A stretch of 64,000 bases of DNA, taken from Lonsdalea populi (lineage in GTDB: Bacteria; Pseudomonadota; Gammaproteobacteria; Enterobacterales; Enterobacteriaceae). Position 1 is the stretch's first letter. The number at the start of each line of letters is the position of its first letter. Below, one piece after another: positions 39,956-44,703 of this stretch. The position numbers and the translations under genes are program-made. The notes under the pieces were generated by a model that saw only the letters and a program-made list of their open reading frames with translations, was not told the DNA's origin and did no database searches. The stretch is from positions 2,666,001 to 2,730,000 of the forward strand of contig NZ_CP065534.1 of NCBI RefSeq assembly GCF_015999465.1, given 5' to 3'.

Positions 39956-41251
39956 TTAGCCGCCTTTGCTTAATAGGAAGTCCGCCAGCGTGCGAACGCC
40001 CAGTCCGGTTGCGCCCGCTGACCACTGATCGACCGCGCCTTTACGGTAAGTCGCCGAACAGTCGATATGGAGCCACCCCTTCTGGTAGTTCTCCACAAAG
40101 TGGGACAGGAAAGCCGCCGCCGTGCTGGCGCCAGCCGAATGCGCCGGGCTGGCGATGTTATTCAGATCAGCGAAGTTAGACGGCAGTTGCTGACGGTGAA
40201 ACTCCTCTAACGGCAGACGCCAGAAAGGTTCGCCCTCGCGCCCGGCGCTGTTCAGTAAATCTCCGACTAACGCATCGTCAAAGCTGAACAGCGCATGATA
40301 GTCGTTCCCCAGCGCCGTTTTCGCGGCCCCCGTCAGCGTAGCGCAGTCGATAATCCACTGCGGCCTCTGGGCAGATGCGTCGATCAAGCCGTCGGCCAGC
40401 ACCAGGCGCCCTTCGGCATCCGTGTTCATTACCTCCACGGTCTTGCCGTTGCGATAGCTGATGATGTCGCCCAGACGAAACGCATTGCCGCTTACCATGT
40501 TGTCGGCGCAGCACAGATACAGTTTGACGCGCTGGTTCAGCCCTCGCGCCGCCGCCATTGCCAGCGCCCCGGTTACCAGCGCGGCCCCCCCCATATCGGA
40601 CTTCATCGAATCCATAAAGCTGCTGGGTTTCAGGCTATAGCCACCGGTATCGAACGTAATGCCTTTACCGACCAGACAGGCCATCACCGGCGCAACGGGA
40701 TTGCCGGTCGGATTGTAGTCGAGCGCCAGCAATACCGGCTGACGGTCAGAACCACGCCCAACGGTATACAGGCCCGAATAGTTCTGCTGACGCAGGTCTT
40801 CGCCTTTAGTAATGCGGTAAGACACCGCGTCGCAGTTGACGGAACACAGCAGGTCCACCGCGCGGGTTGCCAACTGCTCCGGCCCTAGCGCTTCCGCCGG
40901 CAGGTTGATCGTATCGCGTACCCAATCGACGATTTTCAGTCGGCGATCCAACTCCCGCTGCGCAGCCTCATCCAGCTCGGCCCACTCGACGGTGCGCTTG
41001 CCCTTCGGCCCACGGTAACCCTGCCAGAAAGCCCAGCTACTCTTGAGATCCCATCCCTCGCCTTCCAGCTTGACGCGTTTGATGCCCTGACCGTCGATTT
41101 TACGGCCGGCGCGCTGGATGATAGCCAGCGGTTTATCGCCTGTCAGATGGATGGTAAACCCTTGTTCACCAGAGGTTAACGTTGCTTTTTCGCCCCAGCG
41201 AGCGTCTGCCGGCTGGTGGGAAAGGCTAATTGTCATAGCTTCGGTTGTCAT
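39956..41251 (-). CDS. pepB: Aminopeptidase B (M17 family) PepB
   Basis: Leucyl-aminopeptidase-family metallopeptidase with two metals in the active site. Catalytic region [30 protein letters not shown] and the signature NTDAEGRL are intact. The N-terminal domain begins [23 protein letters not shown], close to E. coli PepB. A GTG at 41257 is possible, but I chose the ATG at 41251 (431 aa). In E. coli pepB directly follows iscX at the end of the isc operon; here that whole stretch is missing upstream. Confidence 0.95.
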
Positions 41252-42017
41252 AATCACGTTCCCTATTGCGCATGTCTTTCATCAGGCCGCTCAGCCATGA
41301 AGAAAAAAAACGGCCGCCGTGAAGGCGCGCCTGTGATGCTGGTAATTCAGCTTTTATCCAACCAGAGAACCGCGTCTCTTCCAACCTTTTTAGGTCGCGG
41401 TTCGATGGCCGATCGTTCAAATCATGCCGCTGCATTTTTCGTCATGCAGTTGGGCCGCTTCTAAAGGAATCGGTATGGCGATAATCAACCGCCGATCCCG
41501 TGTATATCCGTTTCGCCGCACGGGCTGACAGGAACAAAAGCCTTTGCGTGTATCAATATAGTGTAATGTGGCGTTTTTACGCCCCACACCTCATATTCAC
41601 ATGCGGTGGTCGTCTGAAGGTTTCAAAACACCGTTCTCTCCACTTAGCCAGTCGAGCACCATGGTCATATTGGTGCAGGTTTATGGCTAATCCTGCAGAC
41701 CTTGCATTCTTCCGCATAAAACTCGTGCCAAGATACCATATATGCGCCTTACGACTGGCGTAACTCGTTGGAAGAGAGGATCGAAAACAAGAAAAATCCC
41801 GGATGGCACCAGCACATGGGAGAGCGAGATGAATAGAAATTCGGGTTGATAAGCAAATAAGCCGCGATGGCGATGAAGCGTTGAACGGTTCAACACACCT
41901 CAACCGAGCATTGGCTCAGACTCGCGCTAGGGTCATCACCGCATGGGACGCGCGTTGGCTGCAACGTTGACCGAGCTAAAGCCCGGCCAACCACGTCTGT
42001 TCGACTTATGGGAAACG
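41252..42017. other. Unrecognised sequence where iscU-iscA-hscB-hscA-fdx-iscX should be
   Basis: Between iscS and pepB, enterobacteria normally carry six genes (about 4 kb). Here there are only 766 bp, and in no frame could I see traces of IscU, IscA, HscB, HscA, Fdx or IscX. Minus-strand frames of 69 and 108 codons (41435-41226, 41903-41577) and a plus-strand 47-codon frame (41943-42086, running antisense into iscS) have no recognisable family. The DNA may come from the event that removed the genes. Confidence 0.7.
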
Positions 42018-43235
42018 TCAGAATTGAGGCGCGCCTGCAACGCGGGTGCTCCTGGCGCTCTGTTTGAAGGCTTTCCAGCCAGGTGAAAGGCTACGCAGTC
42101 GATCGACGGCTTTATGCACCTGCGCGATGGCGTAATCCACCTCTTCTTCCGTGCTGAAACGCCCCAGCGAAAAGCGAATAGAGCTCAACGCCAGCGTTTC
42201 ATTTACCCCGAGCGCCCGCAGCACATAGGAAGGCTCCAGACTAGCGGAAGTACAGGCAGAACCGGAGGAGACCGCCAGATCTTTCAGCGCCATCAGCAGC
42301 GATTCGCCCTCGACGAAGTCGAAGCTAACGTTGAGAAGAGTGGGGATGCTCTGAGACAGGTCGCCATTCAGGTAGATCTCTTCTATATCCCTAAGGCCGT
42401 TCCACAACCGATCGCGCAGGGCGCGCAGCCGCGAAGATTCAGCCTCCATGCCCTCGGCGGCGATGCGATAAGCTTCGCCCATACCGACGATCTGATGTAC
42501 AGGCAGCGTACCGGAACGCATGCCGCGCTCGTGCCCGCCGCCGTGCATCTGCGCATGAATACGCACACGCGGATTGCGGCGAACGAACAGTGCGCCGATG
42601 CCTTTTGGGCCATAAATTTTATGAGCGGAGAACGACATCAGATCGACGTTGAGCTGACCAAGATCGATCGGTAATTTGCCGACGCTCTGCGTAGCATCGA
42701 CATGGTAGATCACGCTATGGCGATGGCAAAGATCGCCGATAGCGGCGATATCCTGCACCACGCCGACTTCGTTGTTGGCATGCATGATGGAAACCAGAAT
42801 CGTATCATCGCGGAAAGCGGCTTCCAGTTCGCTCAAATCAATGATGCCGTTGCTCTTCGGCGTCAGGTAGGTGACGTCAAACCCTTCTCGCTCTAGATGG
42901 TAACAAGGGTCCAGCACGGCTTTGTGTTCGGTGACGCAGGTAATGATGTGCTTACCCTTTTCCCGATGAGCGCTGGCGGCGCCTTTAATCGCCAGATTGT
43001 CGGCTTCCGTGGCGCCCGAGGTGAAGATGATTTCACGAGGGTCCGCGCCAACCAGAAAGGCAATGTGGTTGCGGGCCACGTCCACCGCCTCTTCCGCCTG
43101 CCAGCCGTAACGATGCGAACGGGACGCGGCATTGCCGAACGTGCCGTCCATCGTCAGGAACTTCATCATTTTTTCAGCCACGCGCGGATCAACCGGCGTA
43201 GTGGCTGAATAATCCAGATAGATGGGTAACTTCAT
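42018..43235 (-). CDS. iscS: Cysteine desulfurase IscS with divergent C-terminus
   Basis: PLP enzyme that takes sulfur from cysteine and passes it as persulfide to Fe-S scaffolds and to tRNA and cofactor thiolation proteins. PLP lysine in [11 protein letters not shown] and catalytic loop [21 protein letters not shown] are intact, and the match to E. coli IscS is close from residue 1 to about 392. The last 13 residues ([13 protein letters not shown]) do not resemble the conserved enterobacterial ending VDLNSIEWAHH. The C-terminal tail region takes part in docking IscU, whose gene is absent here. So catalysis should be kept, but the scaffold contact may be changed. Follows iscR by 120 bp. Confidence 0.95.
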
Positions 43236-43355
43236 CGCTCATTCACTCCGTACTTCACATCAAAACGTACTCTGCGTTTTGTTTATTGTCGGGCGCTCCT
43301 GCCCGTGTCCCTCAGGGCCAACGCCATGCGTTGTCAGCACTTCTCCCGAACGCGA

Positions 43356-43850
43356 TTAGGCGCGCAGATTGACGTTGATCGTTTCCTGCGTGCGGCCGGT
43401 AGAGGTACGGCGCGTATCGGCATCCTGACGGTCAGCAACATCAAGAATATCTTTGTTGTTGACCAGCTCGCCCAGGGTAATGTTGTTGAGGAAATCGGTG
43501 ATGCGGTCGCTCAGATCGCGCCACAGCGTGTGCGTCAGGCAGCGGTCACCACCCTGGCAGCCTTCACGCCCCTGGCAACGGGTGGCATCGACCGACTCGT
43601 CAACGGCGGAAATAACCGCGCCGACGGCGATGTCATTGGCGTCTCTCCCCAACAAATAACCACCGCCCGGGCCACGCACGCTGGAAACCAGGCCGTTTTT
43701 ACGCAAGCGGGAGAACAGTTGTTCAAGATACGAAAGCGAAATACCCTGACGTTCAGAGATGTCGGCCAGCGGAACAGGGCCTTCCTGAGAGTGCAGCGCC
43801 ACATCGAGCATGGCGGTAACAGCGTAACGGCCTTTAGATGTCAGTCTCAT
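43356..43850 (-). CDS. iscR: Fe-S cluster regulator IscR
   Basis: Rrf2-family regulator that senses [2Fe-2S] status. It represses isc when loaded, and as apo-protein also controls other promoters including suf. Winged helix ([39 protein letters not shown]) and the three cluster cysteines in [13 protein letters not shown] are intact. 164 aa. Two IscR-type operators precede it. Retained although the scaffold genes that supply its cluster are missing here. Confidence 0.96.
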
Positions 43851-43920: not shown

Positions 43921-43970
43921 ATTCCCGAGTATTTCAGTCAAGTATTTATCCGAGTAAATCACTCAACTAT
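43921..43970 (-). promoter_or_regulatory. Two adjacent type 1 IscR operators at the iscR promoter
   Basis: On the minus strand two abutting 25-bp motifs, 43970-43946 (begins ATAGTTGAGT, contains TTTACTCGG) and 43945-43921 (begins ATACTTGACT, contains ATACTCGGGAAT), match the E. coli iscR site pattern. They lie 71-120 bp before the iscR ATG; TTGACT in the second could serve as a -35 element. Confidence 0.8.
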
Positions 43971-43980
43971 TACTCGCTTC

Positions 43981-44703
43981 TCAACGGTCATTTTTATGGA
44001 TAGAACTGAGGATGCCACGCAGTATATTCAGCTCCTGACTTTCCGGGCGCGCGCGGGTAAACAACCTGCGCAGCTTGCTCATCACCTGCCCCTGATGCGC
44101 CTGGCGGATAAAACCGGTCTCCAGCAGCGTGGATTCCAGATGCTGATAAAAGCGCTCCAGATCGTCCACCAACGGATACGGGGTTTCTTCATGATCGGGC
44201 GTATCCATCTGTTCGTTATGCTGGTGCGCGACACGGATTTCGTAAGACAGAATCTGCACCGCCATCGCCAGATTCAGCGAGCTGTACTCAGGGTTAGCCG
44301 GGATCGCCACATGATAATGACATTTCTGCAGTTCATCATTAGTCAACCCAACGCGCTCGCGGCCGAACACGATGGCGACTGGCGCATGACGGGACTCTTG
44401 CGCGCTGCGAACGCCGCACTCGCGGGGTTCCAGCATCGGCCACGGCAGCGTGCGCGAACGCGCGCTGGTCCCAATAACCAGACTGCAACCTTCCAGCGCC
44501 TGATCCAGATTTTCAACCAGCGTCGCATTCCCGATGACGTCGCTCGCGCCGGCGGAAAGCGCAATCGCCTGTGAATCAGGCTTAACCAGCGGATTGACCA
44601 GATAAAGATTGCTCAACCCCATGGTTTTCATCGCCCGTGCGGCCGATCCCATGTTACCGGTGTGGGACGTTTCAACCAGGACAATGCGTATATTTTCTAA
44701 CAT
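43981..44703 (-). CDS. trmJ: tRNA (Cm32/Um32) methyltransferase TrmJ
   Basis: SPOUT-class 2'-O-methyltransferase acting on position 32 of tRNAs. Start [27 protein letters not shown], then [15 protein letters not shown] and [18 protein letters not shown], the knot motifs that bind SAM. 240 aa, slightly shorter at the C-terminus than E. coli (246). As in E. coli it lies next to iscR, divergent from suhB. Confidence 0.95.

Follow-up and report, generated by a model that had tools for sequence, protein, structure and literature searches.

How does an enterobacterium assemble its iron-sulfur (Fe-S) clusters when its isc operon stops short after the second gene, and what becomes of the genes that stay behind? 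In Escherichia coli, the isc genes are ordered iscRSUA-hscBA-fdx-iscX and are accompanied by sufABCDSE, and we found the same isc gene order in locus L131 and other intact loci. The question is raised by a stretch of 64,000 nucleotides, hereafter the window, which covers positions 2666001-2730000 of the complete genome of Lonsdalea populi (one contig of 3,859,707 bases, 100% complete). A preliminary description of this DNA had read the locus as a true loss of the ISC scaffold and chaperones, with IscS kept for thiolation, and had considered such a rewiring rare. Our analysis bears out the loss, finds a SUF system and agrees with a thiolation role for IscS, but does not support the claim of rarity.

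On the minus strand of the window, trmJ (43981..44703), the conserved neighbour upstream of iscR with 79% identity to TrmJ of the intact isc locus L131, is followed by iscR (43356..43850; NF008110, 339 bits against a cut-off of 275), encoding the cluster-binding regulator, by iscS (42018..43235; TIGR02006, 685.9 bits against a cut-off of 643.2), encoding the cysteine desulfurase, by a gap of 760 bp (41258..42017), and by pepB (39956..41257; NF003450, 759.5 bits), which comes after iscX in intact operons and is the same neighbour in relatives. The gap occupies the site at which relatives carry iscU-iscA-hscB-hscA-fdx-iscX. It had been stated that iscS is followed by a short gap and then pepB, with no trace of the six genes, and both points are correct: tblastn with the isc proteins of the intact relative L131 detected none of iscU, iscA, hscB, hscA, fdx and iscX in the window, and a permissive isc search of the gap returned chance-level matches alone (best window match, E ~1), leaving no recognisable remnant. 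Four other genomes of the genus (G001-G004) are arranged likewise, their gaps measuring 755-783 bp. Among named matches, the best for IscS comes from Lonsdalea quercina (91%), a species whose own row lies within the same genus. The gap gave no Rfam match, and promoter and terminator scans stayed at chance level. Two runs of 29 and 22 bases (41345-41373 and 41545-41566) are invariant across the five Lonsdalea gaps, in which about half of the columns vary overall (398 of 792 invariant); neither run matches an RNA family or a promoter. Across the iscR-iscS junction, 43207..43455 on the minus strand gives a weak match to the intercistronic RNA element RF02783, the IscS-1 thermometer family, which at 48.3 bits (E 6.9e-07) lies below the gathering score of 58. 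The window also encodes RlmN, named from its sequence.

Searches of the whole genome, run with positive controls, extend the absence beyond the locus. The IscU/NifU domain PF01592 has no match in L. populi or in any of the four other genomes of the genus; HscB, IscX and the frataxin CyaY are likewise missing genome-wide, as are Fdx at E 1e-10 and HscA at E 1e-200, with G001-G004 in agreement in each case. Among the three A-type proteins of L. populi, none scores like IscA. As regards membership of the ISC system, the desulfurase IscS is thus present and the scaffold IscU, HscA, HscB and Fdx are absent. Since the isc genes are missing from the entire genome, they have not been relocated; together with the search of the gap and the concordant assemblies of the genus, this disposes, at the level of assembled sequence, of relocation, of a pseudogene hidden in the gap and of misassembly. 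That the genes moved elsewhere or that the locus was misassembled has a next to negligible chance of being right, given a complete single-contig genome without IscU, HscB, HscA, Fdx and IscX and the same arrangement in four further genomes. The genome has a complete sufABCDSE (locus L138), with sufA, sufB, sufC, sufD, sufS and sufE all above their NCBIfam cut-offs. Three desulfurases are left in the genome, IscS, SufS and a third that we take for CsdA.

Collectively, these results lead us to a reading to which we assign a probability of roughly 84%: Lonsdalea has gone through a complete switch from ISC to SUF, in which IscS was demoted to thiolation and IscR came to be loaded by SUF. Under this reading, SUF would have taken over assembly first, whereupon neither the ISC genes nor frataxin nor the end of IscS that binds the scaffold would have had a use, and all would have decayed; SUF would now make all Fe-S clusters, and IscS would supply sulfur solely for thiolating tRNA and for cofactors, handing it to TusA, ThiI and comparable partners.

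The arrangement is far from confined to Lonsdalea. Among 391 genomes drawn from the family, PF01592 was found in 282 and was missing in 109; a few of the 282 (G153, G229, G310 and G363) probably carry NifU only, judging from E-values near 1e-46. Of 80 genomes without PF01592 that were examined further, 71 keep IscS (E 1e-120 or better), and the nine that do not are all of 0.6 Mb or less. Many of the other IscU-less genomes are of symbiont size, and loss there is unsurprising. However, 28 of the 80 are at least 3 Mb, span 15 genus codes and without exception keep IscS. The iscR-iscS-pepB remnant occurs in 14 of these 15 genus codes, a count that combines the fetched loci with Lonsdalea and G008, and the genera concerned include Sodalis, Erwinia, Winslowiella and Duffyella. 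In 19 of 20 fetched loci, iscR, iscS and pepB stand in this order, the aligned ends of IscS and PepB being 25 to 643 bp apart, and iscU, iscA, hscB, hscA and fdx are found in none of the 19; the exception, L159 (from G085), has iscS alone. The same remnant is present in a metagenome bin (L012), and three small genomes (L128-L130) have iscS with no recognisable iscR adjoining it. Names were assigned by plasmid matches of 100% over 9 kb for Winslowiella toletana (G132), Duffyella gerundensis (G040), Sodalis praecaptivus (G008) and Erwinia sp. HDF1-3R (G231), G180 has a 94.8% match to a plasmid of Ewingella americana, and we take G119 to be Sodalis glossinidius and G046 to be the weevil Sodalis. 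With the same remnant in 14 genus codes and in four groups that tree tests keep apart, the proposed rarity of the rewiring is not supported. The opposite choice is seen in two enterobacterial genomes of 4.6 Mb (G007 and G018), in which ISC is present and no SufB/SufD match was obtained.

How often did this happen? Trees were built from TrmJ, PepB and SseB, with IscR added in one of them, and the IscU-less rows were sorted into four groups: Lonsdalea; the Sodalis group; Erwinia-Duffyella-Winslowiella; and an Ewingella-like group. Lonsdalea groups with the IscU-bearing Samsonia and Symbiopectobacterium with a support of 100 in both trees, and the Erwinia group holds together only weakly (support 55 in one tree, unresolved in the other); a first quick tree had joined two long branches. 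The minimum number of state changes on the tree is five. In approximately unbiased (AU) tests, conducted without Aeromonas, G127 and the second L. quercina row, a single clade of all 24 IscU-less rows was rejected (p 9.5e-146), as was the union of any two groups (six pairs, p at most 0.00035), p values that are weakened by the groups having been named after the first tree was seen. Because the tests keep the four groups apart, we infer at least four independent losses.

By themselves, these tests separate the groups but cannot distinguish loss from gain, and they would also accommodate a history in which the common ancestor lost ISC once, long ago, and several lineages later reacquired the isc operon and cyaY. 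Against such regains, the intact isc operons share one gene order at one genomic place, cyaY and the IscS tail would have to be restored as well, and relics of iscX persist within iscU-less loci. Winslowiella retains an internally deleted iscX between iscS and pepB (E 3.8e-9), and the Sodalis group has weaker iscX relics (E 0.0008 to 0.005), which point to a complete ancestral operon that was then lost; the Lonsdalea gap holds no isc relic. The shared order and place of the intact operons, combined with the relics, lead us to read the events as losses, a decision made by parsimony and not by the AU tests, and a history of regain appears very unlikely. Each lineage would then descend from an ancestor equipped with both ISC and SUF and have lost the former.

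The remaining IscS offers a second line of evidence on what the switch entailed. Its catalytic loop and PLP lysine were described as kept, and indeed the loop, H104 and K206 are intact. Its conserved C-terminal tail, which forms part of the region that IscU binding requires, is in contrast replaced by a diverged segment (42021..42080, minus strand), as judged by comparison with the tail motif. According to the available part of a study of IscS, IscU touches the enzyme at residue 347 and at the helices 309-316 and 379-391, and a version lacking residues 376-404 no longer binds IscU, whereas the single changes L386R and M389R still permit binding in a pull-down (PMC2854127). The positions of both changes are lost in Lonsdalea IscS. 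The tail motif occurs in 0 of 31 iscU-less loci (two of them from one L. quercina assembly) and in 77 of 77 iscU-bearing loci, the latter figure applying to a motif widened after other gammaproteobacterial tails had been viewed, as the first version, derived from enterobacteria, matched 38 of the 77; both versions match all 16 enterobacterial iscU-bearing loci and none of the 31. Seven loci outside Enterobacterales were kept apart from these counts, including L036 and L037, which are cut by contig ends, and L065, which lacks iscU and the tail.

Beyond the tail, the 16 enterobacterial loci with and the 31 without iscU were compared with the IscU-bearing consensus, and the divergence is uneven. 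Across the IscU footprint, identity drops from 98% to 55%, the window retaining 70%, and in the tail from 88% to 5%, with 8% left in the window; it remains nearly unchanged at the TusA contacts (100% to 98%) and the catalytic positions (100% to 95%; intact in the window); the set shared by ThiI, CyaY and IscX goes from 100% to 70%, and residues 1-378 as a whole from 96% to 79%. All six TusA contacts (W45, E49, D52, R55, R220 and R237) are kept in the window. R112 is kept in 77 of 77 iscU-bearing loci but in only 1 of 31 iscU-less ones; in the accessible text of the same study, a change of R112 weakens binding of IscX and not that of ThiI or IscU (PMC2854127). The retained TusA contacts and the lost tail fit the proposal that IscS is kept for thiolation. 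Lonsdalea IscS may be predicted, from its sequence, to be no longer able to dock IscU, although L386R or M389R alone still allowing binding and the 70% of the whole IscU footprint kept in the window speak against this.

Two further patterns were seen outside Enterobacterales. Four of the 115 IscS loci (L056, L063, L067 and L068, all gammaproteobacterial and among the seven set apart) have no iscU beside iscS although most of the isc operon around it is intact, hscBA included, and the tail is kept; these loci count against our reading. In Glaciecola sp. XM2 (L065:8001-9197), iscS is directly followed by ndk and rlmN (named from sequence), no further isc gene of the query set occurs in the 17-kb locus, and the IscS tail has diverged; this is a possible further case outside the order.

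A further alternative is that IscS still builds clusters with another scaffold, be it SufBCD, SufA or NfuA, in a hybrid of IscS and SUF. It would explain why iscS remains behind IscR-like operators, an odd position for a pure thiolation enzyme, and the part of the literature available on Mycobacterium tuberculosis describes its lone IscS as contributing to Fe-S enzyme activities beside SUF (PMC10848736). Yet SufS and SufE are present, and the C-terminal region of IscS needed for the ISC scaffold has diverged, so that we regard a hybrid route as improbable and retain the complete switch, with IscS as a thiolation enzyme.

Genes outside the locus are missing along with those within it. A panel of 50 chosen genomes comprised 12 that have IscU and 38 that do not, four of the latter carrying NifU only. 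IscX, Fdx and HscA are each found in 0 of the 38 and in all 12, and CyaY in 0 of 38 against 11 of 12; HscB, searched in 16 genomes, is in 0 of 10 IscU-less and 6 of 6 IscU-bearing ones. SufB/SufD is present in all 38 IscU-less genomes and in 10 of the 12 others (none in G007 and G018). IscU-less genomes have three A-type proteins in 37 of 38 cases (two in G017), and IscU-bearing genomes have four in 10 of 12 and three in both genomes without SUF. Since cyaY is unlinked to isc, its absence falls outside the isc deletion, and with frataxin and IscA missing genome-wide the change is better described as a modular switch than as a local deletion. The association of IscU with CyaY is not significant as a set of independent events, a pairwise tree test yielding three independent pairs, all in agreement (p 0.25); it thus stands on the split of 0/38 against 11/12. 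The one IscU-bearing genome without a frataxin match, G042, suggests that ISC without CyaY exists in the family. In the portion of a survey of 2742 genomes available to us, every genome with cyaY also has iscU and many with iscU have no cyaY (PMC4440780); what is added here is their repeated joint absence inside one family. Frataxin loss may also have been favoured, in view of a 2024 report, available in part, that CyaY inhibits SufSE (PMC11446229).

The regulator appears to have remained in service. The cluster ligands of IscR (C92, C98, C104 and H107) are kept in the window and in all 45 loci examined, and type-1-like operators, mostly in tandem, lie upstream of iscR in loci with and without iscU. 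In the window, scored against what we take to be the type-1 consensus, the distal operator (43946..43970) matches at 21 of 25 positions and the proximal one (43921..43945) at 23 of 25; among 500 shuffles of the 180 bp, run on the window alone, none reached 21 and the best scored 19. The [2Fe-2S] cluster of IscR would be loaded by SUF, and IscR would act as a retained sensor of cluster supply, adjusting iscRS and suf to what SUF delivers.

Control of suf by iron may have changed as well. Within 200 bp upstream of sufA, the best Fur-box score averages 13.8 of 15 where IscU is present (10 genomes, range 12-15) and 10.6 where it is missing (24 genomes, range 9-13; Mann-Whitney p 2.7e-5, with rows that are not independent). 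Lonsdalea sufA scores 10, a value that shuffled sequence attains 25 to 45 times in 200, and hence has no recognisable Fur box. Duffyella and G299 keep good boxes (13), so that release from Fur would be lineage-specific, and the promoter scores are only suggestive of it. An IscR type-2 site before sufA was also considered and not established, scores of 12-14 of 16 being often reached by shuffles; the sole feature common to the candidates is their position next to a GGTTG anchor.

On a broader scale, the replacement of ISC by SUF may be a repeated and orderly transition in Enterobacterales, in which ISC and frataxin leave together, IscS sheds its scaffold dock and becomes a thiolation hub, SUF is freed from control by iron through Fur in some lineages and takes on housekeeping assembly governed by IscR, and selection favours losing frataxin because it inhibits SufSE. 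We offer this generalisation tentatively, as a scheme that may well fail as a whole.

Enterobacteria are presented, in the text available of PMC11559095, as having both ISC and SUF, with ISC as the housekeeping system. Should SUF be the only system in many large-genome enterobacteria, the two-system picture fits E. coli and its near relatives and not the whole group. SUF-only lineages would then be natural experiments on whether SUF suffices for a facultative bacterium with a large genome; they bear on which contacts of IscS serve what, on how IscR works when SUF alone loads it, and on the role of frataxin without ISC, hence on the reported inhibition of SufSE by CyaY (PMC11446229, seen in part). 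Among the full-text matches listed, which come mostly from outside subscription journals and cover Lonsdalea, Sodalis, Ewingella, Winslowiella, Rahnella, Erwinia and Pantoea, we recognised no description of ISC loss in enterobacteria; these absences may nevertheless already stand in the tables of a published survey of how ISC and SUF are distributed. One paper pairing Rahnella with iscU (PMC10946135) proved, in its available text, to concern the IscU of Variovorax, not of Rahnella.

Compared with known systems, Lonsdalea resembles E. coli in having iscR and iscS between trmJ and pepB, tandem IscR-like operators and a complete suf, and differs from it in the absence of iscU, iscA, hscB, hscA, fdx, iscX and cyaY, in the lost tail of IscS and in the lack of a recognisable Fur box before suf. 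With Pseudomonas aeruginosa, described in the accessible text as having ISC only (PMC11559095), it shares being a gammaproteobacterium with one system and not two, although the choice is the opposite one, P. aeruginosa having kept ISC. Another parallel is M. tuberculosis, which, in the part of the source available, uses SUF and has an ISC operon truncated to iscS (PMC10848736): both combine a lone IscS with SUF as the assembly system, probably so in Lonsdalea. M. tuberculosis, however, is a distant actinobacterium, whereas Lonsdalea keeps iscR with iscS, has close relatives with an intact operon, and belongs to a family in which the loss has recurred.
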